A DNA stretch of 40,473 bases from a virus, in IMG/VR virus record IMGVR_UViG_3300020578_000178, positions 1 through 40,473 of that record; one strand, written 5' to 3'. The first letter of the stretch is position 1; every line of letters starts with the position of its first letter. The position numbers and the translations under genes are program-made. The notes beneath the pieces are model-generated. The model was not told the DNA's origin and did not search any database. It saw nothing but the letters and a program-made list of their open reading frames with translations. Shown here piece by piece: positions 7,953-24,238 of this stretch.

Positions 7953-7975
7953 AACGGGGTGAATCTGACCCCATT
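7953..7975. repeat. Dispersed palindrome, copy 1
   Basis: AAC-GGGGTGA-ATC-TGACCCC-ATT. It differs from the consensus (GGGGTCA-NN-TGACCCC with AAC/ATT flanks) by one base in the left arm and a 3-nt centre. It lies in the divergent region about 90 bp before the first early gene, just upstream of a candidate promoter. Confidence 0.85.
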
Positions 7976-7977
7976 CG

Positions 7978-8006
7978 TTTCGATCAAAACATGGTTTCTG
8001 GATAAT
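7978..8006 (+). promoter_or_regulatory. Weak candidate promoter for the early operon
   Basis: TTTCGA (7978-7983) and GATAAT (8001-8006) are 17 bp apart. The -10 matches the sigma-70 consensus at five of six positions, the -35 at only three. Palindrome copy 1 ends 2 bp upstream of the -35, which would suit an operator. A start near 8013 would leave a leader of about 50 nt before the first early gene. Confidence 0.3.
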
Positions 8007-8063
8007 GGGTCTTGTCGCTGGCAAATGCCATGCGGCAAACCCTTTAACGCAATGGAGTCAATC

Positions 8064-8498
8064 ATGCAAAACGTCAAAGCAAACCAATCACTCGAAACCC
8101 TAGTCATCACCGCTATCGATCTAGACAAAAAGCAAGTGACAAACCGCGCGCAGCTCGCAGAGCTGGCAAAGCAATTCAAGCTGACAGACTGGCGTGACTT
8201 TGTCGCGGCGATTCTTGCTCGTGAGTACGGTGTCGAAGTGAAAATCAGTCAGAAATTCGGCTGGGCGACATTCGATAAGGATACTGCGGCAGAGCAACTA
8301 CTCTCGCGCATTTTCAAACTGCATCCAGAGCAACCGAAATTCGCTGCGAAGCACACTACGCAAGCGAAAAAAGAGGCCGTTAAAGCGCCGCGCAAGACCT
8401 ATACCGCCGTCAAAGCGCTCATCCTCGACTCAGGCATGACGCAGCCTGAGTTCAATGCGCTGATCGCTGAGTTGAAAGCCTCGATCACTTTCAAATAA
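8064..8498 (+). CDS. Hypothetical early protein, 144 aa
   Basis: The first gene of the plus-strand operon. The ATG at 8064 has GGAG 6 nt upstream. A longer frame from 7908 would add an unlikely N-terminus encoded by the palindrome region. The protein is helical and charged. Residues 1-50 contain the block QVTNRAQLAELAKQFKLTDW, followed by a mixed region and a Lys-rich linker (about 95-115), ending in a small helical C-terminal part. I do not recognise a family. The basic linker could suit nucleic-acid binding, but this is only a composition remark. The stop codon overlaps palindrome copy 2. Confidence 0.65.
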   Translation: MQNVKANQSLETLVITAIDLDKKQVTNRAQLAELAKQFKLTDWRDFVAAILAREYGVEVKISQKFGWATFDKDTAAEQLLSRIFKLHPEQPKFAAKHTTQAKKEAVKAPRKTYTAVKALILDSGMTQPEFNALIAELKASITFK

Positions 8499-8518
8499 TG
8501 GGGTCAACTGACCCCGTT
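8497..8518. repeat. Dispersed palindrome, copy 2
   Basis: AAT-GGGGTCA-AC-TGACCCC-GTT. Both 7-bp arms are perfect. The flanks are AAT/GTT, the reverse of the AAC/ATT flanks of all other copies. It overlaps the TAA stop (8496-8498) of the first early gene. Confidence 0.95.
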
Positions 8519-8601
8519 TTCTTCCGGCGGGGCAACGGAGAGGGCTGGCCGTTGTTCCGTTTCCTGTCCAATCCAGCCCGATCAACCCGAAAGGCATCAC
8601 C

Positions 8602-8736
8602 ATGAAAACCATCCAACACTTCGCGCTGGGCGTTGGCCTATCGCTCACTTTCCTTTTGCTTGCATCGGGTTCAATACCCGAATGGGTGGGCATCGTGTAT
8701 CTCGTATGCCTTGCGCTGCCTATCGTCGTTGACTAA
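8602..8736 (+). CDS. Small membrane protein, 44 aa
   Basis: ATG at 8602 with AAAGG 7 nt upstream and stop at 8734-8736. The product begins MKTIQHFALGVGLSLTFLLL. Hydrophobic residues about 7-21 form one membrane helix, and a second hydrophobic stretch (about 28-41, WVGIVYLVCLALPIVV) may form another, separated by a short SGSIPE turn. It looks like a two-helix hairpin inner-membrane protein. I do not know its role. Small early membrane proteins often act in superinfection exclusion or host control, which would be a guess here. It sits alone between palindrome copies 2 and 3. Confidence 0.6.
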   Translation: MKTIQHFALGVGLSLTFLLLASGSIPEWVGIVYLVCLALPIVVD

Positions 8737-8737
8737 G

Positions 8738-8759
8738 AACGGGGTCAACTGACCCCATT
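8738..8759. repeat. Dispersed palindrome, copy 3
   Basis: AAC-GGGGTCA-AC-TGACCCC-ATT, an exact consensus copy. It begins 1 bp after the stop of the 44-aa membrane gene and ends 19 bp before the next start codon. Confidence 0.95.
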
Positions 8760-8778
8760 TCACCTGAGAGAAACCACC

Positions 8779-8985
8779 ATGAACGCCAACAAATACGCAG
8801 TCCACGCACAGATCACCAAGCTGCCCGTCACCACCATCGAACGCTACTTCAGCCTGTACCGCCAGCAAGAGATAGCACGAGAGACTAGGAACCGCGAACG
8901 TGCCTATCTCATCGGCCTAGACCTGCACAGGCTGAACAAAGCACACCCACAACTACGCAAAGTACTCAATGTTAGTGGGTACTAA
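8779..8985 (+). CDS. Hypothetical early protein, 68 aa
   Basis: A small basic protein beginning MNANKYAVHAQITKLPVTTI and containing an Arg/Glu-rich central helix (YRQQEIARETRNRERAYLIG). Upstream there is only a weak purine-rich site (GAGAG). There is no membrane segment and no known motif. It is the last gene before the long AT-rich gap and lies 19 bp after palindrome copy 3. The charge pattern could fit a nucleic-acid or protein-binding helix bundle, but no function can be assigned. Confidence 0.55.
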   Translation: MNANKYAVHAQITKLPVTTIERYFSLYRQQEIARETRNRERAYLIGLDLHRLNKAHPQLRKVLNVSGY

Positions 8986-9010
8986 CACAAAAAACAGTTA
9001 AAATGACAGG

Positions 9011-9033
9011 TATCCTAGATTTGAACAACTATC
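9011..9033 (+). repeat. Left arm of 23-bp perfect inverted repeat
   Basis: The arm begins TATCCTAGAT and ends CAACTATC. Its exact reverse complement is at 9275-9297, 241 bp away. The identity stops abruptly on both sides, although nearby TGACAGG and TGGCAGG (reverse strand) give weak extra symmetry outside the arms. Confidence 0.95.
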
Positions 9034-9110
9034 TGAGAAATCCGTCAATGAAAACCCTCGCCCACTCTAGCGTTAGGCAGGTTGGTGGCTATCTATCTAT
9101 CTATATATAA

Positions 9111-9142
9111 ATATAAAGATATAGTTAGTTATGTCTTTATAT
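9111..9142. repeat. AT hairpin inside the inverted-repeat-bracketed gap
   Basis: ATATAAAGA (9111-9119) pairs exactly with TCTTTATAT (9134-9142) around a 14-nt loop. It follows a short CTAT repeat. It is the most AT-rich point of the window and could be an unwinding or protein-binding site. Confidence 0.6.
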
Positions 9143-9152
9143 AGGTGCGCGG

Positions 9153-9180
9153 TTTTCTTTTTTCCTTCCTTCTTTTTTCT
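9153..9180 (+). other. Pure pyrimidine tract, 28 bases
   Basis: Only T and C occur from 9153 to 9180, with T-runs broken by C and CC. Such tracts can form unusual DNA structure or bind single-strand or replication proteins. In this place, between the arms of the inverted repeat, it supports a special role for the gap. Confidence 0.7.
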
Positions 9181-9274
9181 GAAGGGCTATAGTTCTTTTT
9201 GAAAACGATAGATACCATACCACCAAACCGGTTTTGCCCAGCACCCATGCGGGTTTTGGCCGTCCACTTTTTTG

Positions 9275-9297
9275 GATAGTTGTTCAAATCTAGGATA
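9275..9297 (-). repeat. Right arm of 23-bp perfect inverted repeat
   Basis: Exact reverse complement of 9011-9033, beginning GATAGTTGTT and ending TCTAGGATA. It lies about 70 bp before the start of the 256-aa gene. Confidence 0.95.
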
Positions 9298-9364
9298 GTA
9301 CGGCGAGCGACCTGCCATTTCTCAACAATAAACCGTCAAAATCTGAATGAACGGAGCAGCGCTT

Positions 9365-10135
9365 ATGGACTACTTATACCCTTCATACATGGCGATGAGC
9401 GAGAGCAAACTAAACCGGCATCTCGCCAAGCGCAAGTTCCCCGATGCGCTACGTCATAAGATTGTCGAACTCGTAACGCACCAGCGCAAGCACCGCGCCA
9501 ACGAGAGAAGAAAACGGGGGCAACTGACCCCATTATGGGAACACCTGATGCAGCCCTTGATGTTCGAGATTCGTTTGGTGCGAAGTGCGCTGTCCTACAC
9601 CAGCAGGAACGGCGAACGCAATGCTGTCCGAGTTGAGGCATTGAACGCATACCTGATCGTCATGACCACGCTATACAACCGCTTCAAAGACTTACGCAAG
9701 GCCAACGACAAGTCGCCTGTGCGTATGGCAAAAGAAAAAGACCCGCCGCTACCCAACGGCGGCGAGCATTGGACAGACTGGATACCTGACCACATCAGGC
9801 AGCGCACCCTCGCTTTGTTCAAAGAGATACCCAAACTAGCCCACGCCAAGACCAAGCGCCCGTTCGAGCGGCGTATGCCGCCGTCTGTGCATGATGAAAT
9901 CAAGCAGCGTGTGGTGAAGAGGCTAGAGAATGACCTTGCTGTATTGGAAACAGATTTGAAACTGATGGAGATGCACCCCAATCCCAACCCTGATGACAAC
10001 GAAGCCCCGCACAACAAAGCATTAAAGGCACAGCGCAGCAGGGTCAACCGAGCAAAGCGCGCCAGAGAAATACTGGAGGCGATGCACCCCACCGAGGCGC
10101 TGCCAATCACATGGCACGCACTGGTGTCCGAGTAG
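9365..10135 (+). CDS. Hypothetical protein, 256 aa, with palindrome copy inside the frame
   Basis: The start at 9365 (MDYLYPSYMA) is preferred because GGAG lies 8 nt upstream. The in-frame ATG at 9347 has no ribosome site. The protein is very basic and helical (many Arg/Lys), with a long charged coiled-coil-like region toward the C-terminus (about residues 170-240). Around residues 50-58 it reads KRGQLTPLW, which is the translation of palindrome copy 4 (9513-9534), so the repeat is part of the coding sequence. I do not recognise a family. The high positive charge suggests nucleic-acid contact. It is followed 3 bp later by palindrome copy 5. Confidence 0.6.
   Translation: MDYLYPSYMAMSESKLNRHLAKRKFPDALRHKIVELVTHQRKHRANERRKRGQLTPLWEHLMQPLMFEIRLVRSALSYTSRNGERNAVRVEALNAYLIVMTTLYNRFKDLRKANDKSPVRMAKEKDPPLPNGGEHWTDWIPDHIRQRTLALFKEIPKLAHAKTKRPFERRMPPSVHDEIKQRVVKRLENDLAVLETDLKLMEMHPNPNPDDNEAPHNKALKAQRSRVNRAKRAREILEAMHPTEALPITWHALVSE
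9513..9534. repeat. Dispersed palindrome, copy 4 (within a gene)
   Basis: AAC-GGGGGCA-AC-TGACCCC-ATT. The only change from consensus is T to G in the left arm. In the reading frame of the surrounding gene this changes GGT to GGG, both glycine, so it is silent. Confidence 0.9.
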
Positions 10136-10138
10136 TAG

Positions 10139-10160
10139 AACGGGGTCACCTGACCCCATT
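10139..10160. repeat. Dispersed palindrome, copy 5
   Basis: AAC-GGGGTCA-CC-TGACCCC-ATT with perfect arms and a CC centre. It starts 3 bp after the stop of the 256-aa gene and ends 17 bp before the next ATG, just ahead of its AAAGGAG ribosome site. Confidence 0.95.
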
Positions 10161-10177
10161 ATTAAAAGGAGAAGCAA

Positions 10178-10510
10178 ATGAAGATCGTATACAACAGCAA
10201 GGGCTATGGCCTACAGCTAACCGCAGATGAGATGCAGATGATCGCAAAAGAGTTGGGCGAAACGGTACGCGAACCCAACAAAGGCAGCAATGAAACGTGG
10301 TTCAGAGGAATGGACTGGATGTCGTTTCGCAAGAACGAGTATCTGGTGTCGTTGGTAGAGCAGGGCAAGCTGAGTAACAAAGACCTGCGCATCGTTGACC
10401 TGTGGAATACCGACGACTGGTACATCGACACAGACTGGACCACATTCGAGGATGTGATGTATGCAGAACCTCGCTACGTCAGCGCAGTAACAGACTACTG
10501 TGAACCCTAA
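10178..10510 (+). CDS. Hypothetical early protein, 110 aa
   Basis: A start at 10178 is supported by AAAGGAGAAGCAA just upstream. The protein is acidic and rich in Trp and Tyr (for example WFRGMDWMSF, and WNTDDWYIDTDW near residues 86-97), with an N-terminal strand MKIVYNSKGYGLQL that looks like a small alpha/beta domain. Acidic, aromatic-rich small phage proteins are sometimes DNA mimics or host-enzyme inhibitors, but I see no specific family and do not assign a function. It begins a four-gene cassette between palindrome copies 5 and 6. Confidence 0.65.
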   Translation: MKIVYNSKGYGLQLTADEMQMIAKELGETVREPNKGSNETWFRGMDWMSFRKNEYLVSLVEQGKLSNKDLRIVDLWNTDDWYIDTDWTTFEDVMYAEPRYVSAVTDYCEP

Positions 10511-10531
10511 CCACAACGAAAGGAGAAGCAA

Positions 10532-10630
10532 ATGGATGAAGAAGAAATCTTTATGGTCGCTGTCGCTTTGGTCGGCGCTTTGGTTGGCTGCGTACTGGCA
10601 GCCATTGTGATGTTGATTGTTTTGAACTAG
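10532..10630 (+). CDS. Very small membrane protein, 32 aa
   Basis: ATG at 10532 with AAAGGAGAAGCAA upstream and TAG at 10628-10630. The product has an acidic N-terminus MDEEEIF and then one continuous hydrophobic helix (VAVALVGALVGCVLAAIVML). It is a typical single-span small protein with a cytoplasmic acidic tail. The function is unknown. The strong, stereotyped ribosome site shared with its neighbours is the main evidence that it is translated. Confidence 0.6.
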   Translation: MDEEEIFMVAVALVGALVGCVLAAIVMLIVLN

Positions 10631-10640
10631 GAGAAATGAA

Positions 10641-10880
10641 ATGACTGAAGCAGAAAAGTTAGTTTTGCAATTCAAATCAGAGCGTGCCGTGATGCGTGTG
10701 GCCGAGCTTTATACCAACGACCAGCTACACGACGCAGCACACAGGATGAAACACGAGGGCGGCCATTTCGCCTCACGCCTAGCCGATGCCTATTTCTACG
10801 CTGACCTATCCAACAGACGCAAGCTATTGGATGCGTTTGGGGAGTTGTTCGAGCGGTTCGTACCAAGAGAGGGGGAGTGA
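10641..10880 (+). CDS. Hypothetical early protein, 79 aa
   Basis: Starts at 10641 after TAGGAGAAATGAA. A helical soluble protein beginning MTEAEKLVLQFKSERAVMRV and with a C-terminal FGELFERFVPREGE helix. It contains several His residues in the middle (HDAAHRMKHEGGHF), which are not in a recognised metal motif. The next gene starts one base after its stop, with the ribosome site inside its last codons. No function can be given. Confidence 0.6.
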   Translation: MTEAEKLVLQFKSERAVMRVAELYTNDQLHDAAHRMKHEGGHFASRLADAYFYADLSNRRKLLDAFGELFERFVPREGE

Positions 10881-10881
10881 G

Positions 10882-11214
10882 ATGAAAACAGCAGACATGA
10901 CAGGAGCCGCGCTGGACTGGGCGGTAGCGATGATTGAATTTCCTGAGCCTGATTATGAAAATGACGACCGCTTGGTTTACGTTTATGGCGATGACGAGTT
11001 TCACTTCAGCCCATCAACCGACTGGGCACAGGGCGGCGCGATTATTGAGCGGGAGAGAATTACGGTGCGCCACTACAACGACGCATTGTGGGACGCATCA
11101 ATAGGAAGATTGGATTATGTAGCAGATGGCACAACCCCACTCGTCGCAGCCATGCGCTGCTACGTAGCAAGCAAACTAGGAGAGGAGGTGAAGATACCAG
11201 ACGAGCTTAAATAA
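10882..11214 (+). CDS. NinX-like protein (DUF2591)
   Basis: A 110-residue protein. The start at 10882 is chosen because GGGAG precedes it and because MKTADMTGAALDWAVAMIE is the typical family N-terminus. The middle has FSPSTDWAQGGAIIERERI and the C-terminus has PLVAAMRCYVASKLGEEVKI, both hallmark segments of the DUF2591/NinX family found in the nin region of lambdoid and other phages. The biochemical role of the family is not known to me. It closes the cassette 10178-11214, and palindrome copy 6 begins right at its stop. Confidence 0.8.
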   Translation: MKTADMTGAALDWAVAMIEFPEPDYENDDRLVYVYGDDEFHFSPSTDWAQGGAIIERERITVRHYNDALWDASIGRLDYVADGTTPLVAAMRCYVASKLGEEVKIPDELK

Positions 11215-11236
11215 AACGGGGTCAACCAACCCCATT
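11215..11236. repeat. Dispersed palindrome, copy 6 (degenerate right arm)
   Basis: AAC-GGGGTCA-AC-CAACCCC-ATT. The left arm is perfect and the right arm has two changes, so only GGGGT/ACCCC can pair. It begins at the base after the NinX-like stop codon. Confidence 0.85.
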
Positions 11237-11273
11237 TCCAGCAGTAACAAAATCAACAACAGGAGAAACAACC

Positions 11274-12863
11274 ATGCAACTACACACGACAAGTACGTGG
11301 GTCAACCCACACGAGTCCGACTTCGATCTGCGGCGACGCCATGATCGAGAGGACAGAGAAGCCCATCACCGCCATTACAAGCTGCACAATTACAACGGCG
11401 GCCAAGCACGGAGATTGTTCGACGATCTGGCAGCGGTGCTGCGCAGTATGGCTGTGGCGGCAGAGGACGAGTTCTATACAGCACGGCACTACCCACACAT
11501 CAAGCGCGAGGATGCGCTTGAGCACAAGTGGCACGCCAACTTGCAAAGCCGGTTCAAAGCCCACCCCGCTGTGTTCGCTGCGATGGTCGATTGGCAACCC
11601 CACTCGGTTCACAATCTGGTTTTCGAGTGGCCGCACGTATCTGAGACTGACCCCAACCGGCTGGCCTACACACGCGACAACCGATCCGGCCATGCCGATC
11701 GACAGACCGTCACAACGGTGGGTAAGTATCTAGCGCGGCACTTCCCCGGCATGCAAGACCACGCCATCCGTGACTTGGCTGCACGCTTCGCTGGCTACCA
11801 CTTCGAGCTATGGGATACCACCGACGACATCATCCGTTCGGTGCAGGACGGACCAGCAAGCTGTATGCAGTGGGAAAACGACTGCGACCATCCGTATGAA
11901 GTCTATGCCCCTGCGTTGGGCTGGCGTGCGGCGGTGCGCTTGGATGGGCAGAAAAATATCGTTGGCCGCTGTCTGGTGTACGAGTCAGACAGAATAAGTA
12001 AACGCTACGTTCGCTCTTACGCCCACAAGGAGGGGGGTTACTCGCACAGCGACGAGGGTCTTGAGGCGTGGCTGCGTGAGCAGGGGTATGACAAGCACTA
12101 CAATTGGGATGGGTGCAGACTCGCTCGCATCGAGTCATGGGAAGGAAGTACCTTCCTTGCGCCCTACCTCGACGGTGATACCAAGCGGGTGGCCGACGCA
12201 GGTACGTACTTAGTCGTTGACCCCAACGGTCGCTTGCTGTTTGACTGTACCGACGGCGGGCACGGCAACTGCGGTGGGCGTGAGTGCGACAACTGCGGCG
12301 CTGACCACGACGAGGAAGACACCACATGGGTCGGGCGGCACGGGGATTACGGCGTGTGTCCAGACTGTATGGACAACTTCACCTATGTGTTAGGACGTAG
12401 AGGCACCTCGTACTACATCCACCAAGACGATGCGGTTCATGATGCGCACGATGGGCAGGCGTATGACCCCGAGTATCTCGCTGACAACAACATGGTCGAG
12501 CTGCACGATGGCGACATCACCTGTCAAGACAACGCTGTGTATCTCGAAACGCGAGGGGAGTGGTGGGACGCTGACGATTGCGACGTAGTGTTCTGCGAGC
12601 ATGACGATACCTATGAGCACATCGAGGATGTAGTCCAGCTTGCCGACGATACATGGGCAGACCCAGACAACACATGGGAGTGTCACGTATCGGGCGACAG
12701 GTATCACAACGATGCGCACAAGCGAGAGCGTGTGCAGTTGTCCACGCTGAACAACCAAGAAGAAATATACGTGCATGAAGACAACATCGAGGAGTACTAC
12801 GCCAACCTCGACGCTATAACGGGGTCAACGCACCCCATTCTTGCTGTAACAACTACCGTCTAA
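11274..12863 (+). CDS. Large acidic, Cys/His-rich protein of unknown function, 529 aa
   Basis: The start at 11274 follows CAGGAGAAACAACC. The N-terminal 300 residues are mixed alpha/beta and rich in His and Arg (opening region HDREDREAHHRHYKLH). Residues about 325-365 form a zinc-ribbon-like unit with CDNC (337-340) and CPDC (361-364). The remaining 160 residues are extremely rich in Asp, Glu and His, with isolated Cys in ITCQDN, DDCDVVFCEHDD and WECHVSGD. This looks like repeated degenerate metal-binding modules. Palindrome copy 7 lies inside the frame and encodes the ITGSTHPIL part of the C-terminus. I do not recognise a family. Host takeover, DNA mimicry or metal-dependent assembly are only guesses. 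Confidence 0.65.
   Translation: MQLHTTSTWVNPHESDFDLRRRHDREDREAHHRHYKLHNYNGGQARRLFDDLAAVLRSMAVAAEDEFYTARHYPHIKREDALEHKWHANLQSRFKAHPAVFAAMVDWQPHSVHNLVFEWPHVSETDPNRLAYTRDNRSGHADRQTVTTVGKYLARHFPGMQDHAIRDLAARFAGYHFELWDTTDDIIRSVQDGPASCMQWENDCDHPYEVYAPALGWRAAVRLDGQKNIVGRCLVYESDRISKRYVRSYAHKEGGYSHSDEGLEAWLREQGYDKHYNWDGCRLARIESWEGSTFLAPYLDGDTKRVADAGTYLVVDPNGRLLFDCTDGGHGNCGGRECDNCGADHDEEDTTWVGRHGDYGVCPDCMDNFTYVLGRRGTSYYIHQDDAVHDAHDGQAYDPEYLADNNMVELHDGDITCQDNAVYLETRGEWWDADDCDVVFCEHDDTYEHIEDVVQLADDTWADPDNTWECHVSGDRYHNDAHKRERVQLSTLNNQEEIYVHEDNIEEYYANLDAITGSTHPILAVTTTV
12818..12839. repeat. Dispersed palindrome, copy 7 (within a gene, degenerate right arm)
   Basis: AAC-GGGGTCA-AC-GCACCCC-ATT inside the last codons of the 529-aa gene. 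Compared with consensus it carries one silent change (ACT to ACG, Thr) and one replacement (GAC to CAC). Confidence 0.85.
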
Positions 12864-12882
12864 CAATCAAGGAGAAACAATC

Positions 12883-14022
12883 ATGTCTACACAGACTACA
12901 CACAGCATGCACGGCACAGTTCAGTACAACGTATTGAGCAAGCTTCTTTCAACCAAGCGCCCACATGGGTCACAGACCAACAAGCGCATCACCGAGTGGC
13001 TACGCACACAGCTACCGTTCCAACTAAGCAAGGCGGCATTCCTCGATGGGGCGGGTAACCTGCACGTGGATAACAGATCACTCAGTTCTCACAAAACCCT
13101 GTTCGTCGCGCACGTGGACACTGTGCATCGTAACGAAGGCAAGAACAAGATCAACAAGACCAAGACGCATTGGTACGCCAAGGGTGACGTGCTTGGCGCT
13201 GACGATGGTGCTGGGGTTGCGCTGCTGTTTCATCTCATCTGGTCTAACGTGGCAGGCTACTACATATTCACGCAGGGCGAGGAACGCGGAGGGGTAGGCG
13301 CACGCTACCTAGCCGAGCGGATGCCTGACTTGCTGCGCGAGTTTGACCGAGCCATTGCGTTCGACAGACGGGGCATCGACTCCATCATCACACATCAAGG
13401 GTGGGGGCGGTGTTGCTCTGATGAGTTCGGTGACGCACTGGCTGATGCGCTGATGGAACACAACGACAACCTGATGATGCTGACCGACGACACGGGCGTG
13501 TACACCGACACCGCTGAGTTCACCGAGTTCATACCCGAGTGCACCAACATATCGGTGGGCTATGACCGTGAGCACACGCAGAGCGAGAGCCTCAACCTCG
13601 TTCACTATCAACAACTCTCTTCTGCTGCCGCACAGATTGACTGGGACAGCCTCCCCACGTCACGCGATCCTAGCGTGGCTGAAAGTTTGTACGACAACTA
13701 CAGCACGCATGGTCAAGCTGGTTGGTGGACACAGTACACCATGCCAACCACAAGCTACAGCACAACCAAGTACCACTACCCAGACCCAAGACGCGAGGAG
13801 GCCATCGATGCAGTTATCGATGCGCAGTATGGGTACCACTTGCCGTTGTCGGACATGATCGCCGCGTCGGTGTGGCCTGAAGACAAGCAGCTTGCGCTGC
13901 GTCACATGAACTTCAAACAGCTAGACCCTGCGATGCTCGATGAGGCGTTCGAGATGCTAGACGCAGGGGAAGATATAGACTTAGTGCTAGGCATGCTGTT
14001 CGATGAGATGCACGTACACTAA
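12883..14022 (+). CDS. M20/M28-type zinc metallopeptidase
   Basis: A 379-residue protein with a start after AAGGAGAAACAATC. It carries the full ligand set of co-catalytic zinc exopeptidases in order: AHVDTVH (H77, D79), GADDGAG (D107/D108), GEERGG (E133, E134), AFDRRG (D161) and DREHTQSE (H231). The fold is expected to be an alpha/beta aminopeptidase or deacylase that removes N-terminal residues or acyl groups. No separate lid domain is obvious. About 120 C-terminal residues beyond the catalytic core are unrelated and acidic. There is no signal peptide, so it should act in the host cytoplasm. The substrate is unknown. It is expressed with early orphan genes, which suggests host modification rather than virion maturation. 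Confidence 0.8.
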   Translation: MSTQTTHSMHGTVQYNVLSKLLSTKRPHGSQTNKRITEWLRTQLPFQLSKAAFLDGAGNLHVDNRSLSSHKTLFVAHVDTVHRNEGKNKINKTKTHWYAKGDVLGADDGAGVALLFHLIWSNVAGYYIFTQGEERGGVGARYLAERMPDLLREFDRAIAFDRRGIDSIITHQGWGRCCSDEFGDALADALMEHNDNLMMLTDDTGVYTDTAEFTEFIPECTNISVGYDREHTQSESLNLVHYQQLSSAAAQIDWDSLPTSRDPSVAESLYDNYSTHGQAGWWTQYTMPTTSYSTTKYHYPDPRREEAIDAVIDAQYGYHLPLSDMIAASVWPEDKQLALRHMNFKQLDPAMLDEAFEMLDAGEDIDLVLGMLFDEMHVH

Positions 14023-14028
14023 GACCAC

Positions 14029-14050
14029 AACGGGGTCAGTTGACCCCATT
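14029..14050. repeat. Dispersed palindrome, copy 8
   Basis: AAC-GGGGTCA-GT-TGACCCC-ATT with perfect arms and a GT centre. It is 6 bp after the peptidase stop and 15 bp before the next ATG. It is the last copy in the window. Confidence 0.95.
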
Positions 14051-16618: not shown

Positions 16619-18582
16619 GCCGCCCCTACGACCGCACACTCGTAATCGATTTTGAAACAAGATGGGACAGCAAGCAGTACACGCTGTCCAAGATGACAAC
16701 CGAAGAATACGTACGCGACCCCCGATTCAAAGCGTTTGGTGCTTGCATCAAACACCTAGACGAAGAAGGACCCGCGGTCTGGGTACGCGGCGCTGAACTT
16801 GCACGCTGGTTTGCAGAGATTGATTGGAGTCGCACCGCAGTGTTGGCACACAACGCGCAGTTTGATGTGTCCATACTAGAGTGGCACTATGACTGTCACC
16901 CTGCGTTTATCTTTGACACCTTATCGATGGCGCGTGCCTTGCGTGGGGTGGAGGCAGGCAATAGTCTTGCCAAGCTTGCTGAAGCGTTTGAGTTACCGCC
17001 CAAAGGACGAGCGGTGCATAGCACTGATGGGCTGGAAGACTTGACGTGGGACATCGAGATAGAGTTGGCCGACTACTGCAAGCATGACGTGATGTTGTGT
17101 GAAGCAGTATTCGCACGACTGCGACCGGGGTATCCGACATCAGAGCTGCGGCTGATCGACATGACGCTAAAGATGTACACCAGACCGCAACTGGTGCTCG
17201 ATCAAGAGATGTTAGTTAAAGCCATTGATGAGGAAAGGACAACACGTGAGGAACTATTGGCGCGACTTGGGGTGGACGATGCGACGCTATCGAGTAATCC
17301 TAAATTCGCGGCTTTGCTTACTTCGTTGGGATGTCGTGTACCTCATAAGCAAAGCAAAACGACAGGTAAAGAAACTCTGGCACTCGCTAAAAACGACGCG
17401 CTTTTCCAAGCACTTCTCGAAAACGAGCGTGAAGACGTCAGACTTCTATGCGAAGCGAGGTTGCGAGTTAAATCAACGACGGAACGAACACGAGCGCAAC
17501 GGTTTCTCGACATCGCGCAGCGCGGTGCGTTACCCGTGCCACTTTCATATTACGGGGCGGTCACCGGACGATGGACCGCGTCGAAGGGAAGTGCCATAAA
17601 CATGCAGAACTTGAAGCGCGGGTCGTTCTTACGCAACGCAATCACGGCACCTGATGGGCACGTGGTGGTAGCCGGTGACTTGTCGCAGATCGAGCCGCGT
17701 GTGTTGGCGTGGCTGTGCGACTACGAGGACATGCTGGATATTTTTCGCAACGGTCAAGACCCCTATGCGCAGTTCGGTGCGCGTATGTTCAACATCCCCG
17801 GCATGACCAAAGAAAGTCACCCTGCCCTGCGTCAGAGCGCGAAGTCGGCACTACTGGGGTGTGGGTATGGGTTGGGCTGGGCGTCGTTCGCAAGCCAGCT
17901 AATGACGGGGTTTCTTGGCGCACCACCTGTACGATACGAAGCACAGTTTGCGCGGGAGTTGGGGGTCAACGGGGATTTTTATAGAGAGTTTATAAGCTGG
18001 AAACAAACCGAGGTGCGTTTGCGCGACATCCCGCACACTTGCACACTGGACGAGTTGGTGATGCACGCTGTCGCCGCCAAGCGGATCATTGACATCTATC
18101 GCTTGACTGCGTATCCAGTTGTTTCTTTTTGGGAAATGTGCACACGTTTAATTCGTGACTGTCTTTACGACGGTATGGAGTTCGAGTATAAATGTCTAAT
18201 CTTCCGCAAGGGCGAGATTGAGCTGCCTAACGGAATGAAACTGCTGTACCCTGATCTGCGCGTTGAGAAAGACGATGAGGGTAGGCCGCAGTATGTGTAC
18301 GGCGAAGATGCTACTAAGCTGTATGCAGGTAAGGTTACCAACAACGTCACGCAAGCACTGGCAAGAATTGTGATGACGGATGGTATGCGTCGCATCAACG
18401 AACGCTATCCTATCGTTGGAACAGTGCATGATGAATTATGGACGGTAGTACCTGAGTCGGAGGCGGAAGAAGCCAAAGATTGGGTTCTATCGCAGATGAC
18501 TATGGAACCTTCTTACATGCCGGGGATTCCATTGAACGCGGACGTGGGCTACCACCAACGCTACGGCATGGCTAAAAACTAA
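16615..18582 (+). CDS. Family A DNA polymerase with 3'-5' exonuclease
   Basis: A 655-residue replicative polymerase. The DnaQ-like exonuclease has exo I DFET (12-15), exo II AHNAQFD (78-84) and exo III YCKHD (154-158). The polymerase has TGRWTASKG (317-325), motif A DLSQIEPRVL (355-364), motif B in RQSAKSALLGCGYG (406-419, with Arg, Lys, Gly and Tyr in the O-helix pattern) and motif C HDE (605-607). No 5'-nuclease domain is present, as in other phage polymerases. The start is a TTG at 16615 that overlaps the previous stop (TTGA) and has AAGGAG 8 nt upstream. The rare start and coupling may keep its level low. It acts with the primase-helicase encoded at 24.2-27.2 kb. Confidence 0.95.
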   Translation: MSRPYDRTLVIDFETRWDSKQYTLSKMTTEEYVRDPRFKAFGACIKHLDEEGPAVWVRGAELARWFAEIDWSRTAVLAHNAQFDVSILEWHYDCHPAFIFDTLSMARALRGVEAGNSLAKLAEAFELPPKGRAVHSTDGLEDLTWDIEIELADYCKHDVMLCEAVFARLRPGYPTSELRLIDMTLKMYTRPQLVLDQEMLVKAIDEERTTREELLARLGVDDATLSSNPKFAALLTSLGCRVPHKQSKTTGKETLALAKNDALFQALLENEREDVRLLCEARLRVKSTTERTRAQRFLDIAQRGALPVPLSYYGAVTGRWTASKGSAINMQNLKRGSFLRNAITAPDGHVVVAGDLSQIEPRVLAWLCDYEDMLDIFRNGQDPYAQFGARMFNIPGMTKESHPALRQSAKSALLGCGYGLGWASFASQLMTGFLGAPPVRYEAQFARELGVNGDFYREFISWKQTEVRLRDIPHTCTLDELVMHAVAAKRIIDIYRLTAYPVVSFWEMCTRLIRDCLYDGMEFEYKCLIFRKGEIELPNGMKLLYPDLRVEKDDEGRPQYVYGEDATKLYAGKVTNNVTQALARIVMTDGMRRINERYPIVGTVHDELWTVVPESEAEEAKDWVLSQMTMEPSYMPGIPLNADVGYHQRYGMAKN

Positions 18583-18593
18583 CAGGAGAAACA

Positions 18594-18932
18594 ATGTACG
18601 CCAAAAGAAAACCACAACCGCCACCGTTACATTTGCCCACGCGCATTCGTATTGGCAAACGGTTGTACTCCATCGATGTGGTCGAGACGTTAATAAACAA
18701 GGGCGACATGGCGCGGCACTACCCTGCCTTGCAGAAAATCAAGATCGCCCAGCGCAGTAATTTAACGGGAAAACGATACACAAGTGACGACCTCAACGAT
18801 TCGTTCTGGCACGAGATAGTCCACGCTATTCTGCATGACATGGAAGAGCACGAGCTAAACAAGAATGAACGGTTTGTCACAGCGTTTGCCGCCCGACTAA
18901 CCAAAGCAATCAAGTCCGCGAGGTTCAAGTGA
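18594..18932 (+). CDS. Small HEXXH-motif protein (zincin-like)
   Basis: A 112-residue protein starting after CAGGAGAAACA. The segment SFWHEIVHAILHDMEE (about 81-96) contains HEIVH, the zinc-binding HEXXH motif, and the later NERFVTAFAARL supplies an acidic residue that may be the third ligand. This resembles the ImmA/IrrE- or SprT-like small zincins seen in phage replication clusters. The N-terminus is basic and Pro-rich. The substrate is unknown. It is not possible to say from sequence whether it is an active protease. The GTG of the next gene overlaps its stop. Confidence 0.7.
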   Translation: MYAKRKPQPPPLHLPTRIRIGKRLYSIDVVETLINKGDMARHYPALQKIKIAQRSNLTGKRYTSDDLNDSFWHEIVHAILHDMEEHELNKNERFVTAFAARLTKAIKSARFK

Positions 18933-19594
18933 ATAAAGTCGTCTGGTCGCACAGTTCATTGAAAGACTACGAGGGCTGCCCGCGCCGTTATCAAGAGGTC
19001 AAGGTACTGAAGCACTACCAGTTTGAAGAAACTGAAGCGACACGGTACGGCACGGAGTTTCACAAAGCAGCCGAGGACTACATCAAAGAAGGCAAGGAGT
19101 TGCCAGAACATTTCGCGTTTATCAAAGCCACGCTGGACGCGCTCAACAGCAAGCCCGGACGAAAGCTTTGCGAACAAGAGATGGCACTGGACTCCGAGCT
19201 TAAACCGTGCGGCTGGAAGTCAGAGCAGGTGTGGGTACGGGGTATTGCTGACTTACTCATCATCGATGATGACAACTTAACTGCATGGATCGTTGACTAT
19301 AAGACAGGCAACAACAAATACCCAGACCGTGAGCAGCTAAAGCTCATGGGTCTGTTGGTGTTTGCGCACTACCCACACATTCGTAAAGTCAATGCCGCAC
19401 TGCTGTTCGTGGTCAAGAACGACATGGTCAAGTACAGCCTGACGGTTGACGATGCGCAAGCTGCATGGTGGGAATACAGAGAACGCGTTGCCCGTATCGA
19501 ACAAGCGCACGATACAGGCGTTTGGAAAGCCAAACCGTCGCCACTATGTCCGTGGTGTCCGGTTATCACATGTGAACACCACCCAAGGAGTTAG
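18929..19594 (+). CDS. RecB/Cas4-like PD-(D/E)XK exonuclease
   Basis: A 221-residue nuclease starting at a GTG that overlaps the previous stop (GTGA), with GAGG upstream. It has the typical opening WSHSSLKDYEGCPRRYQ, GTEFHKAAEDYI (His motif), VRGIADLLIID (motif II Asp) and WIVDYKTGN (motif III D-x-K). The C-terminus has CPWCPVITCEHH, and with the early Cys could hold an iron-sulfur cluster or zinc as in Cas4/AddB-type enzymes. Such enzymes resect DNA ends for recombination and repair. It is next to polymerase, VRR-NUC and helicase genes, so it belongs to the replication-recombination module. There is no CRISPR locus nearby, so a Cas4 role in adaptation is not suggested. Confidence 0.85.
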   Translation: MNKVVWSHSSLKDYEGCPRRYQEVKVLKHYQFEETEATRYGTEFHKAAEDYIKEGKELPEHFAFIKATLDALNSKPGRKLCEQEMALDSELKPCGWKSEQVWVRGIADLLIIDDDNLTAWIVDYKTGNNKYPDREQLKLMGLLVFAHYPHIRKVNAALLFVVKNDMVKYSLTVDDAQAAWWEYRERVARIEQAHDTGVWKAKPSPLCPWCPVITCEHHPRS

Positions 19595-19596
19595 TC

Positions 19597-19824
19597 ATGC
19601 CGCGCGACTACAAAAAAGAGTACGCCGAATACCACGGCAAGCCTGAACAAATCCAGAACCGTGCAGAGCGCGTCAAGGCGCGGCGCATGCTGGAGAAGAC
19701 CAACGCTGTTACTAAAGGTGACGGTAAAGATGTAGACCACAAGAAGCCGCTACGCTCTGGCGGCACAACCACCAAGAGCAACCTCCGCGTTCGTAGCGTC
19801 AAAGCGAATAGAGGGGATAAATAG
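19597..19824 (+). CDS. Small HNH-like protein
   Basis: A 75-residue very basic protein. Residues about 46-70 read DVDHKKPLRSGGTTTKSNLR, followed by VRSVKANRGDK, matching the DH..P...GG...NL pattern of the HNH beta-beta-alpha metal fold. The usual zinc-binding Cys pairs are absent and the protein is short, so it is a minimal HNH domain. It could be a nicking enzyme in replication or packaging, or a decayed homing endonuclease. It lies 2 bp after the Cas4-like gene and 9 bp before the helicase, within a continuous operon. Confidence 0.7.
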   Translation: MPRDYKKEYAEYHGKPEQIQNRAERVKARRMLEKTNAVTKGDGKDVDHKKPLRSGGTTTKSNLRVRSVKANRGDK

Positions 19825-19833
19825 GAGATCGTG

Positions 19834-21396
19834 ATGCAAATTATTGAAGACAAAGCACTGCTATTTAAAACGCACAATCCGCACAAGTATCAAATCATTC
19901 CGAAGCACAAAATTGTTAACAACTACGACGATGGCAGCGCAGAAATTGCTGTCTACTGGGGGCTAGATGAAGCGCGCGTACTCAAGAATCTTGGCGTTAA
20001 AGATGTCCCGTCTCCGATTACTCGCCGCTACGCATGGCCGGGGCGGTTTAAACCCATGTCTCACCAGATTGAAACCTCAGCGTTCCTCACCCTTAACAAG
20101 AAGGCTTTTGTTTTCTCGGAACCCGGCACAGGTAAAACTCTCTCAGCGCTTTGGGCTGCTGACTACCTCATGGAGAGAGGCGTAATCAGACGATGTTTGA
20201 TCCTCTGTCCACTATCGATCATGCATTCAGCATGGTTGGGCGACTTAAATAACAGCATCATTCATCGCACCGCTGTAGTTGCGCATCACTACCAAGCAAG
20301 TCGTCGTATTGAGATGGTGCAGCAAAACTACGAGTTTGTTATTACCAACTACGACGGGCTGAACTTAATTGCTGACGAGATACGTAACGATGGCCGCTTC
20401 GATCTCATCATCGTTGACGAAGCCAATGCGTACAAAACCACCACCACCAAACGCTGGAAGTCGTTGCAGTCCGTCGTCACCGCCAACACGCACTTGTGGA
20501 TGATGACGGGAACCCCCGCTTCACAGTCTCCTGCTGATGCCTACGGCCTTGCTAAGATGGTTAATCCTGATGGGGTGCCTCGGTTCTTCACAGGTTGGCG
20601 CGACAAAGTAATGAACAAAGTCACGCAGTTTAAGTGGATGCCAAAGATGAACGCTGCCGAGGAAGTACACAAGGCGCTGCAACCAGCGATTCGTTTCACC
20701 AAAGAACAATGTCTTGATCTGCCACCAGTGATGACGATGGCGCGTGACGTGCCGCTAACTCCACAGCAGGCCAAGTACTACAACCTGTTGAAAGAACGCA
20801 TGCTAGTGCAAGCGGCGGGAGAGACCATCACCGCAGTCAATGCCGCTGCTGGTGTATCCAAACTGCTACAAATCTCGTGCGGTGCAGCCTATACGGACGA
20901 CAAGGAAGTAATCGAGTTTGACGCTGCCCCCCGCCTGTCTGTACTGGAGGAAATACTGGAGGAGACCAGCCGCAAGGTCATCATCTTCGCCCTATTCCGC
21001 AGCACCATCGACACCATCCAGACACACTTAACAAAAAAGAACGTAGCCAATGAAGCAATACATGGCGACGTACCACCGAGCAAACGCGCTGACATCATCC
21101 GGCGCTTCCAATCAGAACCCAACCCCCGTGTGCTTGTCATGCAGCCTCAAGCGTCTGCACACGGTATCACCTTGACCGCTGCGGATACTGTTATCTTCTA
21201 CGGTCCACTAATGTCTGTTGAGCAATACACCCAGTGCATAGCACGCGCAGATCGCAAGGGGCAGAACTCAGACAAGGTGACGGTTGTACATATCCAAAGC
21301 AGCCCGATTGAACGCAAAATGTTTAAAGCTTTGCAAGATAAGGTGACTGACCACGCGCTGCTGACCCAGTTGTTCAATACCGAAATAAACTCGTGA
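19834..21396 (+). CDS. SF2 helicase, SNF2-type
   Basis: A 520-residue helicase. GTGKT (98-102) is the Walker A, VDEAN (193-197) is the motif II in DEAH/DEXX form, MTGTPAS (about 222) is motif III, and QCIARADRKGQ near residue 472 is the motif VI of SNF2-like enzymes. The Q-motif-like MSHQIETSAFL precedes motif I. The two RecA lobes are complete and there is no extra nuclease domain. The ATG at 19834 is preferred to the GTG one codon earlier because AGGAG has a 6-nt spacer to it. It probably remodels branched DNA or displaces proteins during replication and recombination. Confidence 0.9.
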   Translation: MQIIEDKALLFKTHNPHKYQIIPKHKIVNNYDDGSAEIAVYWGLDEARVLKNLGVKDVPSPITRRYAWPGRFKPMSHQIETSAFLTLNKKAFVFSEPGTGKTLSALWAADYLMERGVIRRCLILCPLSIMHSAWLGDLNNSIIHRTAVVAHHYQASRRIEMVQQNYEFVITNYDGLNLIADEIRNDGRFDLIIVDEANAYKTTTTKRWKSLQSVVTANTHLWMMTGTPASQSPADAYGLAKMVNPDGVPRFFTGWRDKVMNKVTQFKWMPKMNAAEEVHKALQPAIRFTKEQCLDLPPVMTMARDVPLTPQQAKYYNLLKERMLVQAAGETITAVNAAAGVSKLLQISCGAAYTDDKEVIEFDAAPRLSVLEEILEETSRKVIIFALFRSTIDTIQTHLTKKNVANEAIHGDVPPSKRADIIRRFQSEPNPRVLVMQPQASAHGITLTAADTVIFYGPLMSVEQYTQCIARADRKGQNSDKVTVVHIQSSPIERKMFKALQDKVTDHALLTQLFNTEINS

Positions 21397-21465
21397 AAGG
21401 GGGTTGCATTGCTAAACAAAACGCAGTAATCTGTCCAACTCTAGACAAAATAAATGGAGAAGCAA

Positions 21466-21870
21466 ATGTCAGACGAGCTAATTCCGCTCGACAAACTTGC
21501 AATGGTGTACCGCAAGATCAAAGCGGAGATTGACCAATTAACGCAAGCGTACGATACTAAGTTGGAGCAACTCAAAGCGCAGCAAGACGAGCTTCGATTC
21601 GCAATGAAAGACCAGATGAAAGCGCTGGGCGTGACATCTGTTCGCACCGCCTTCGGTACTGTGTCAATGGTTCACAAGACGCGCTACAGCAGCGACGACT
21701 GGGACTCGTTCAAGAAGTTTATTGTCGAGCACGATGTCGTTGATTTGTTGGAGAAGCGTATTGCACAAACCAACATGGCACGGTTTCTTGAAGAAAATCC
21801 GGGCATTGTTCCACCCGGATTAACATCGTTATCGGATTTTGAAATCCGAGTAACTAAACCTTCTAAGTGA
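21466..21870 (+). CDS. Conserved phage protein with coiled-coil N-terminus, 134 aa
   Basis: The ATG at 21466 follows TGGAGAAGCAA. Residues about 10-50 form a Lys/Glu/Gln-rich coiled coil (KIKAEIDQLTQAYDTKLEQL). The second part has TSVRTAFGTVSMVHKTRYS and then DDWDSFKKFIVEHD, and it ends with a Pro-rich segment NPGIVPPGL. I have seen this arrangement in phage replication regions, loosely like Gp157-type proteins, but no activity is known to me. Its last codons are part of a 16-bp direct repeat (21857-21872) that recurs after the next gene. Confidence 0.6.
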   Translation: MSDELIPLDKLAMVYRKIKAEIDQLTQAYDTKLEQLKAQQDELRFAMKDQMKALGVTSVRTAFGTVSMVHKTRYSSDDWDSFKKFIVEHDVVDLLEKRIAQTNMARFLEENPGIVPPGLTSLSDFEIRVTKPSK

Positions 21871-22116
21871 GAACGACATGGACACTATGCCTTTAACTGA
21901 AGCCCCCTTATCTTGCGGTATGCAAGAAGGTTTTGCAACAGAAGCTGAAGCGATTGCAGTATGGCACACGCTTGAAAATAAATTCGAGTACAGTATTAAG
22001 TATATTGTTTCGCATGTCACAGGCGAAACAATTGCATTTGTCTTTGAAAAATGTGACCCCAAGATGTACCAAACGTATTATGGATTTGGTGAAGTACTTT
22101 AACCTTCTAAGTGAGA
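21857..22116. repeat. Pair of 16-bp direct repeats flanking a 74-aa gene
   Basis: AACCTTCTAAGTGAGA occurs at 21857-21872 and again at 22101-22116. The first copy includes the stop of the upstream gene and the leader of the 74-aa gene. The second is the leader of the next gene. The region between them is exactly one gene, which suggests gain of this gene by recombination or duplication of the leader. Confidence 0.85.
21878..22102 (+). CDS. Hypothetical protein, 74 aa, between direct repeats
   Basis: Starts with MDTMPLTEAPLSCGMQEGFA and is a mixed, acidic small protein with an aromatic C-terminus (YQTYYGFGEVL). Its ribosome site is weak. It uses the repeated leader AAGTGAGA shared with the next gene. 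I recognise no family. The flanking direct repeats suggest it is a later insertion into the operon. Confidence 0.55.
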   Translation: MDTMPLTEAPLSCGMQEGFATEAEAIAVWHTLENKFEYSIKYIVSHVTGETIAFVFEKCDPKMYQTYYGFGEVL

Positions 22117-22122
22117 CTCTAT

Positions 22123-23049
22123 ATGACTAACGTAACGCTATTTAATCCCGCTAATGTTCCCGCTTTCGCACGTAATAATGAAATGTCGGACACCGCTAAA
22201 GCACTAACCGGCGGCATGTCCGCGCCTACTAAGCGTCTGTCTATTAAAGGTGGTGTGTTTCGTCTGTTAGCCAATGGCAAGGAGATTGGTGCCGTAGATG
22301 AACGCCATCTTGACGTTATTGTTGTTAAAGCCGCACCTAAAATTAGCCGTATTTTTTATATGGCAAAGTACGATCCAGACAATCATGCAGCACCAGATTG
22401 CTGGTCGAACGATGGAGAGCGTCCTGATCCTGCTGCCGAAAACAAACAAGCGTTGACTTGCATCAGTTGCCCGCAGAACGAAGCTGGTTCGGGTAATGGT
22501 AATAGCCGCGCTTGCCGTTACCAGCAGCGTCTAGCTGTTGTACTGGCAAACAATCCAGAAGGCGATGTGCTACAGGTAACACTACCTGCTACGTCCATCT
22601 TTGGTAAGGAAGATGCAGAGAAACGCCCGTTGCAAGCTTACGCACGGTACTTGGCAATGCAGAATCCGCCGATCAACCCAGAGCAGATCGTTACGCGTAT
22701 GCGGTTTGATACTACTGCTGAAGCGCCAAAACTTTTCTTCCAACCAATGCGTTGGCTGACAGATAAAGAGTATGAAGTAGTGCAGCGGCAAGCTAATACG
22801 ACTGAAGCAAACCGCGCTGTTGTTATGACGGTAGCACAGGCCGATGGGGTCAAGCCGTTAGCATTGGCAGGTAAGCCACCTGCGGCGGTCGAGGCAGAGT
22901 TCGAAACGCCAAAAGCCAAGAAAGCCAAAGTCGAACCGACGAACGACGATTCGGAACCAGAAGTTCGTAAGACTTCTGCCAAGCCGAGTGCAGTACCGGA
23001 GAAGAAAACCAAGTTGGCTGACATCGTAGCCGACTGGGACGAGTCGTAA
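22123..23049 (+). CDS. Candidate single-stranded DNA-binding protein with Cys motif, 308 aa
   Basis: The ATG at 22123 is preferred to the GTG at 22111, which lies in the repeated leader. The N-terminal 230 residues are beta-rich, with KRLSIKGGVFRLLANGKEI, a WSNDGERPDP loop, and CISCPQNEAGSG with a second Cys in SRACRYQQRLAVVL, so a metal site is likely. It continues with LQVTLPATSIFG. The C-terminal 60 residues are low-complexity and charged, ending in the acidic DIVADWDES. An OB-like core plus a disordered linker and acidic tip is the layout of SSB proteins (T7 gp2.5, bacterial SSB). No other SSB is visible in the replication module. This is inference and not a family match. Confidence 0.5.
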   Translation: MTNVTLFNPANVPAFARNNEMSDTAKALTGGMSAPTKRLSIKGGVFRLLANGKEIGAVDERHLDVIVVKAAPKISRIFYMAKYDPDNHAAPDCWSNDGERPDPAAENKQALTCISCPQNEAGSGNGNSRACRYQQRLAVVLANNPEGDVLQVTLPATSIFGKEDAEKRPLQAYARYLAMQNPPINPEQIVTRMRFDTTAEAPKLFFQPMRWLTDKEYEVVQRQANTTEANRAVVMTVAQADGVKPLALAGKPPAAVEAEFETPKAKKAKVEPTNDDSEPEVRKTSAKPSAVPEKKTKLADIVADWDES

Positions 23050-23157
23050 GTTCACGGGGGAAAGCGGATGCTGTGAACCGAGGGCAGTGTGTTCGGTCTG
23101 GGGCACGATGCACGGCCTCACAGACGCAGCGAGTACCCCACCTTCTTAAACGAGTAC

Positions 23158-23184
23158 AAGGAGAGGGGCTTTGGCCCCCAAACT
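23158..23184 (+). promoter_or_regulatory. Ribosome site separated from its start codon by a hairpin
   Basis: AAGGAG (23158-23163) is 21 nt from the ATG at 23185, too far for normal initiation. GGGGC (23165-23169) and GCCCC (23174-23178) can pair around TTTG between them. If the hairpin forms, the effective spacer is 7 nt (A plus CAAACT). T4 genes 25 and 38 are known examples of such structured spacers. Confidence 0.4.
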
Positions 23185-23664
23185 ATGCCGATAATATTCC
23201 CATCAAATACTAAAGGCGTAACCACCGGGATGCTGCGGCAGATTAAGCAGCAAGGCTATACCACCGCAAACGGGGGTTTCTTTGACCAAACCGAGCTGAC
23301 CGGCCTCGCTGTAAATGTTTCGTTGTATCTTGAACCGATTGAACCTTTGGGGAAATACATGAGCGCACTAGAGAAAGCAAGAGAAGATGCGGAAGAAATG
23401 ACCGCAGCACTACTAAAAAACACCAATGCTATGGTGGAGCAAGCAAAAGAAACACACAAGCAGCTAAACGACATCAACGGCAAAATGCGTGACGGAGCGG
23501 AAAAACTGGGCGGTGCGTTGGAGAAGTTTAATAAAATCGCAGGCAACACTAATTTTGCAGAAACAGCCAAACAAGCAGAGTCGCTTGTGTCCAGTTTAGA
23601 GCGTCTCGCGGCGCTGGAAGCTAGCGGCATGTTAGATAAAGTAATGAAAGCAATGACAAAATAG
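23185..23664 (+). CDS. Coiled-coil protein of unknown function, 159 aa
   Basis: The frame from ATG 23185 begins MPIIFPSNTKGVTTGML. Residues about 58-155 are a long amphipathic coiled coil rich in Lys, Glu and Ala (KYMSALEKAREDAEEMTAAL and on), with no motif. Alternative starts are GTG 23089 and ATG 23359, the latter with GGGG about 7 nt upstream. The choice of 23185 depends on the hairpin-spaced ribosome site. The function is unknown. Such helical proteins in replication modules may be oligomerisation adaptors. Confidence 0.5.
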   Translation: MPIIFPSNTKGVTTGMLRQIKQQGYTTANGGFFDQTELTGLAVNVSLYLEPIEPLGKYMSALEKAREDAEEMTAALLKNTNAMVEQAKETHKQLNDINGKMRDGAEKLGGALEKFNKIAGNTNFAETAKQAESLVSSLERLAALEASGMLDKVMKAMTK

Positions 23665-23772
23665 CCCAGCCGGAGGTGGCGCATATAACACCGGCAGCGG
23701 GGGCTGTGGAACTTTCAGGTACATGTGACTCCTAACCGCAGTGACCCCGCATCACTAACTTAATTTACATAT
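23665..23772. other. Structured untranslated gap before the HTH gene
   Basis: The gap contains GCGGGG-g-CTGTGG (23697-23709), which pairs with CCGCAG-tga-CCCCGC (23736-23750). That gives a 12-bp two-part stem around a 26-nt loop. A smaller stem-loop precedes it (23669-23695, GCC...GGC with GGTG/CACC). There is no coding signal. It may be an RNA regulatory element for the HTH protein or a small RNA. Confidence 0.4.
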
Positions 23773-24051
23773 ATGGCCTACTCACAAAAAACCATCAAAG
23801 CTATTGCGTCTGCGCCAAAAACCCCCGGCACTCGGTTAGGTCGATGGGCAGTCCATTTAGATTTTCCCGTTACCAAGATCGCGTATGCGTTGGGCGTGAC
23901 ACGGCAGACGGTTTACAACTGGTTCACCGGCAAGGAAATTTTTGTTGCATACCAACCCCGTGTCGAACTACTACTCAAAATTATGCAGCACTCAAAAACT
24001 GCTGATGAAGCATGGAGAAAAATATGTCAGGAATACGGCCTCAAACCCTAA
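23773..24051 (+). CDS. HTH DNA-binding protein, 92 aa
   Basis: Residues about 30-55 contain TKIAYALGVTRQTVYNWFTG, a clear helix-turn-helix (TRQTVYNWF as recognition helix) of the XRE/resolvase-type class. The C-terminal part has several aromatic and Trp residues (DEAWRKICQEYGL). There is no Shine-Dalgarno before the ATG. The upstream structured gap suggests post-transcriptional control or a leaderless message. It could be a phage transcription regulator or an origin-binding factor. The latter is attractive next to the primase-helicase, but there is no direct evidence. Confidence 0.7.
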   Translation: MAYSQKTIKAIASAPKTPGTRLGRWAVHLDFPVTKIAYALGVTRQTVYNWFTGKEIFVAYQPRVELLLKIMQHSKTADEAWRKICQEYGLKP

Positions 24052-24221: not shown

Positions 24222-24238
24222 AACAATAGAGGATCGCT

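Follow-up and report, generated by a model that had tools for sequence, protein, structure and literature searches.

The repressor sites of phiC31 are inverted repeats in the early region, and the mobile promoter/stem-loop cassettes of the T4 type place inverted repeats at early gene junctions, with an early promoter on each copy. In phiC31, these repressor sites are multiple and dispersed (PMC4557955). The Cluster A mycobacteriophages (L5, Bxb1) have 20-30 repressor sites dispersed over short intergenic spaces, most of them away from promoters. These stoperators are asymmetric 13-mers that point along transcription, and the protein that binds them is a monomer with a pair of DNA-binding domains; site and immunity repressor are specific to each subcluster, match each other and co-diverge (PMC6550527, PMC9283540). 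The Cluster O mycobacteriophages (Corndog) carry a 17-bp palindrome, TGTTCGG-N3-CCGAACA, in 34 copies genome-wide and with a single sequence throughout the cluster; the authors predicted a dimeric DNA-binding protein, and no binder or function was assigned (PMC4351075). Here we describe an array of eight palindromes (P1 to P8) in the complete IMG/VR virus record IMGVR_UViG_3300020578_000178 (40,473 bp; the window in the following), together with a small gene, gene 1, that lies between the first two of them. The window carries the gene set of a short-tailed phage: terminase, portal, DNA polymerase, exonuclease, helicase, primase and lytic transglycosylase.

We consider it rather probable that the product of gene 1 is a homodimeric, sequence-specific binder of these palindromes, which probably regulates its own gene and acts as a stoperator-like roadblock on the early genes. 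Sequence comparison supports the sites themselves, their conserved junctions, a constraint of the DNA type and the co-variation of gene 1 with the palindrome, including a correlation of one predicted helix with the half-site; from these we infer dimer binding, roadblock action, timing and any effect on superinfection. Like the stoperators of Cluster A, the palindromes stand at gene ends, are not enriched for promoters save at P1, and diverge between lineages together with gene 1, which would take the role of the repressor; unlike stoperators, they are symmetric, have only 4-8 copies, are restricted to the early region and occur in phages without detected integrase (the tyrosine type was searched), whereas the Cluster A phages are temperate and maintain lysogeny. 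Gene 1 also differs from the Cluster A repressor, with its helix-turn-helix and stoperator domains, in having no relation to it or shared fold detectable by Pfam, PHROG, PDB-sequence and Foldseek searches. With Cluster O the array shares the 7-bp inverted arms, the short variable centre, the many copies, the positions away from promoters and the non-temperate phages, but here the sites are lineage-specific and early only, and a co-varying candidate binder is identified. The dispersed sites of phiC31 are likewise read by a phage repressor, but phiC31 is a temperate phage with repressor isoforms. The T4-type cassettes are similar in their repeated inverted repeats at early gene junctions, whereas all sites other than P1 are here at control level for a promoter-like score.

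A first-pass annotation of the window had described a 22-bp consensus in eight copies and nowhere else. When GGGGTCANNTGACCCC was searched with up to 3 mismatches over all 40,473 bp, exactly eight matches were found, all within 7,953-14,050; dinucleotide shuffles of the window (n=100) had a mean of 1.33 matches and a maximum of 4, and 0/100 reached eight. Number and positions of the copies were thus as described, but the consensus does not fit all of them: the palindrome at 7953 has 23 bp with a 3-nucleotide centre, the copies at 11215 and 12818 retain only GGGGT...ACCCC, and the copy at 8497 (AATGGGG...CCCCGTT) is inverted in respect to the remaining window copies, which is the reason for the degenerate outer base of the half-site (AAY). 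Five copies (8497, 8738, 10139, 11215 and 14029) are indeed within 0-8 bp of a stop codon, while the next start codon, reported at 15-45 bp for most copies, is at this distance for five or six of the eight. The features of the region are:

7953-7975, no strand: P1, palindrome AACGGGGTGAATCTGACCCCATT, upstream of gene 1
After P1: conserved promoter-like element, NNCGAT-N16-GATAAT
8064-8498, plus strand: gene 1, 144 amino acids, fast-evolving, proposed cognate DNA-binding protein, between P1 and P2
8497-8518, no strand: P2, palindrome in opposite orientation, overlapping the stop codon of gene 1
8738-8759, no strand: P3, palindrome, 1 bp past the stop of a 44-amino-acid frame (ATG at about 8602)
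9347-10135, plus strand: F2, conserved early protein of about 260 amino acids, detected in 56 contigs; almost all relatives have a palindrome behind it
9513-9534, no strand: P4, palindrome within the 5' part of the 9347-10135 reading frame, at the same place in the relative L009
10139-10160, no strand: P5, palindrome, 3 bp past the F2 stop
11215-11236, no strand: P6, palindrome directly 3' of the stop of the 10882-11214 gene, before F0
11274-12863, plus strand: F0, conserved early protein of 529 amino acids; nearly all relatives have a palindrome ahead of it
12818-12839, no strand: P7, palindrome within the final codons of the 11274-12863 frame (F0)
12883-14022, plus strand: F1, peptidase (phrog_4191)
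14029-14050, no strand: P8, last palindrome of the array, 6 bp past the peptidase stop

With the peptidase gene (12,883-14,022), 80 related contigs were retrieved. Where a contig extends across the region upstream of the peptidase, it nearly always has 4-8 palindrome copies; mirror-repeat controls gave 0-3 in most contigs. The sequence of the palindrome varies between phages and is uniform inside each: examples are GGGTCA-N3-TGACCC, GGGGACA-N3-TGTCCCC and GGGAGCA-N3-TGCTCCC, and further lineages have GGCGGAAC-N-GTTCCGCC, GTGATACA-N3-TGTATCAC, TTCCTAC-N2-GTAGGAA or AGATAGA-N3-TCTATCT. Relatives close to the window carry near variants (GGGGTG in L009, GGGGT-N6 in L032). The junctions are shared: palindromes flank the first early gene on both sides, follow F2 and the peptidase and precede F0, and in most lineages with readable gene order gene 1 is placed between the first two. 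Exact palindrome matches across an entire 66-kb contig are confined to the early region (18,051-24,414). A stop codon is present at -17 to +12 nucleotides of 56% of 276 sites, in comparison to 10% of random positions. The first-pass annotation had reasoned that a motif spread at random, or missing from these junctions in relatives, would speak against a junction or regulatory role; junctions are kept and the palindrome sequence is not, which favours a regulatory role. No loci were retrieved by a peptide-pattern search with F0 alone, and no array was found in the isolates Pelagibacter phage HTVC027P, DSL-LC04 and 023Pt_psg01, whose TerL proteins are 48-51% identical.

Gene content between palindrome copies differs among relatives, and the first-pass annotation had raised the possibility of recombination joints for cassette exchange. 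Together with the short, multicopy nature of the palindromes and their position at gene boundaries, this would suit such joints or mobile repeats, either repetitive extragenic palindromes (REP) or similar to miniature inverted-repeat transposable elements (MITE). We regard both as extremely unlikely: the sequence at the same junctions differs per lineage and changes jointly, and the dispersal through host genomes expected of a mobile repeat was not seen, as the 22-mer of the window has zero occurrences among 84,980 prokaryote genomes (GTDB genome set). Alignment breakpoints do lie within 25 bp of palindromes more often than of random positions (10.4% versus 5.6%), but per stop codon there are 0.80 breakpoints with a palindrome and 0.77 without. 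The excess is thus an effect of the gene boundary, and recombination joints were rejected.

Whether the palindrome acts as DNA or as RNA had been left undecided in the first-pass annotation, which suggested symmetric protein binding or an RNA hairpin. Within genomes, deviations at strongly conserved arm positions affect one arm only in 134 cases and are compensated in 6 (counts for sites that were called under a mismatch limit), and G-U accounts for 22/134 of the one-sided deviations, the one sixth expected by chance. Exact half-site pairs show the spacer of their own genome in 118/120 cases, with no direct or everted series; spacer length varies from 0 to 6 between genomes and is constant within one genome. 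One-sided changes and a single spacer per genome point to a protein of two-fold symmetry that reads the half-sites as DNA: in their sequence pattern, the palindromes fit half-sites for a dimer and not an RNA hairpin. Transcript-end hairpins (terminators, processing or stability elements) would agree with sites just past stop codons, with the GC-rich stems of the window and with T-rich runs behind some copies, but function as RNA is very improbable, as changes are one-sided rather than compensatory, G-U is at chance, loop-free perfect palindromes occur (GGGACACGTGTCCC), stems of other lineages are AT-rich and the spacer is invariant within genomes. No Rfam match for the palindromes was found in the five sources searched. 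The RNA hairpin or terminator was therefore rejected.

The candidate for the dimeric protein is gene 1. Its rank correlation with half-site similarity is 0.53, higher than for TerL (0.40), F4 (0.37), F2 (0.32), peptidase (0.25) and F0 (0.16), and it stays at 0.42-0.52 after removal of each control. Retrieval by protein sequence only, based on an alignment of gene 1 proteins of the GGGTCA lineage (one GGGACA protein included), resulted in 71 further loci with the helix KTxVRD: GGGTCA-N3-TGACCC is present in 71/71 and located at the gene 1 stop in 67. Proteins with the helix (R/K)KAL(G/Q)R retrieved essentially only loci with GGGGACA palindromes, and the gene 1 subfamily of the window retrieved loci with GGGGTG and GGGGTC variants.

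The correlation extends to single helix positions. Clustering at 70% identity gave 33 clusters; all of those with T at helix position 6 have TCA (16/16), and most of those with K have ACA (7/9). Three helix assignments of this tally are pattern errors, which leave the T and K counts unaffected. Within one subfamily of 69-82% identity, the half-site is GGGAGCA where helix positions 1-2 are YW, GGGGACA where they are HQ and GGGGTCA where they are HT. In the window subfamily, GGGGTC occurs with R at position 6 and GGGGTG with S or L. Gene 1 itself is mosaic, with C-terminal segments common to proteins with unlike N-terminal parts. One such mosaic (L194:5530-6420) joins a helix of the ACA type to a C-terminus of the window type. 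The palindrome of this contig has the ACA core plus the outer AAC...ATT of the window, a hint that the outer bases may be read by a second part of the protein.

As gene 1 changes in step with the palindrome, it very probably encodes the palindrome-reading protein, and since the protein and all sites change together, each lineage owns a private address code. Alternatively, the palindromes could be bound by a different early protein, such as F2, or by a protein of the host, with gene 1 co-varying only because it is linked and fast-evolving; correlations with the palindrome also exist for F2, F4 and TerL (0.32-0.40), and partial correlations of 0.20-0.29 are left given gene 1. We give this very little credence, because the strongest correlation belongs to gene 1, helix changes parallel half-site changes in several subfamilies and retrieval by protein alone predicted the palindrome; a host protein, moreover, would not yield a different site per phage.

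Gene 1 proteins have about 120-190 amino acids and are very divergent (mean column identity of 16-28%). AlphaFold models of the window protein and the L016 protein (predicted local distance difference test, pLDDT, of 84 and 87, respectively) agree with each other and predict two long helices, a beta hairpin, the proposed recognition helix, a linker and a C-terminal helical hairpin. The putative recognition helix of the window protein is near residues 75-86 (EQLLSRIFKL). No homologue was found among 50,697 records of isolated phages and no match in GTDB genomes with a single-protein query.

Promoter-like sequence is found downstream of 32% of P1 sites (15% in controls) and of 14-17% of the other sites. 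A promoter-operator at every site was therefore rejected, as P1 alone is promoter-associated, and this restriction matches an autoregulated gene with sites that act on elongation or on something else. We propose that gene 1, behind its own promoter-like sequence and flanked by P1 and P2, is probably autoregulated, and that accumulating protein would fill the sites where early genes or gene sets end. By analogy to stoperators, which when bound act as roadblocks to transcription and which the distribution of the sites had already brought to mind in the first-pass annotation and which sites at gene ends and mostly away from promoters do resemble, bound protein would most likely block elongating RNA polymerase, and such roadblocks could shut down or meter the first ~6 kb of early genes. 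The private code would stop the protein of one phage from acting on the genome of another lineage. A terminator-like hairpin is present right after P2 (8519-8580 in the window and at the same place in many relatives, with a clear T-run in L062), which suggests that gene 1 may form its own transcription unit.

Several observations weigh against a gene 1 protein that acts in this way. Foldseek searches with both models matched no known DNA-binding fold and no solved or viral structure, and comparisons with Pfam, PHROGs and PDB sequences gave nothing of substance. P1 lies upstream of the promoter, downstream of the promoter or inside the gene 1 coding sequence, depending on the lineage, and simple operator overlap is therefore not general. 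Four near-identical contigs have no palindrome copy at the gene 1 stop. The Mantel p-values of the correlations are based on 300-500 permutations, and shared ancestry of the phages is not fully removable.

Binding of the palindromes by the gene 1 protein could also serve a purpose other than a block of transcription, such as compaction, organisation or protection of the early DNA, or its marking for replication or packaging. The same co-variation of gene 1 and the position of most sites away from promoters would also suit this case, and the authors of the Cluster O study concluded that their palindromes serve something besides transcription initiation (PMC4351075). We find this unlikely, albeit worth consideration, as sites that keep to the early genes (about 6 kb) and to gene ends would be odd for packaging or genome-wide compaction.

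Lysogenic immunity is unlikely to be the purpose of the system, since no tyrosine integrase was found in 25 contigs, with 14 control genomes positive (serine integrases lay outside the search, and contigs may be incomplete). The phages are apparently lytic, and to suppose that the system serves competition among co-infecting phages is speculative. Tentatively, and with more doubt than conviction, we suggest that the gene 1 proteins are a novel family of phage DNA binders, perhaps of a new fold, through which obligately lytic phages exert stoperator-like elongation control. Selection would have split this family into dozens of specificity groups, and related phages in one cell would be unable (or able) to silence one another accordingly. 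Recognition of the immunity type would then exist without lysogeny, with a readable residue-to-base code. The Cluster O arrays of non-temperate phages had been assigned neither binder nor function; here, more than 100 environmental phage contigs pair protein and site variants that point to one gene and one helix, which makes the role of such arrays in lytic phages directly testable, provides a natural specificity library for a protein family without known relatives and suggests that regulator and sites can co-diverge rapidly outside lysogeny too.

Further repeats were observed in the window and its relatives. Between the gene that ends at P3 and F2, the window has a 47-nucleotide inverted repeat (9011-9057 and 9251-9297, 77%) around an AT-rich stretch of 193 bp, possibly a replication origin; the relative L008 has a syntenic 46-nucleotide inverted pair (414-459, 664-709) of unlike sequence. 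A second conserved hairpin, CGGTTRGC-stem-TGCCG(T/A)CTCA-stem, is present in L032, L038, L042, L044, L046, L052, L062, L068, L071, L072, L079, L080 and L084. It is located just before an AGGAG ribosome site, has 46 copies in 31 contigs with 10 stem variants (for example L071:5265-5300) and lies 13-21 bp past a palindrome in 19/25 called cases; as its stems co-vary, it looks like an RNA element.

Two other genomes have dispersed palindromes of their own. The contig L007 (IMGVR_UViG_3300033463_001124), rejected as a relative because its one copy of the 22-mer is shared by chance and the contig is unrelated, has at least 26 TGTTAA-N4-TTAACA palindromes, possibly a second dispersed-site array. The isolate Planktothrix phage Pag-Yong1 (L090, OL906435) has about 30 copies of GGTTCA-N3-TGAACC genome-wide, in both early and late regions.

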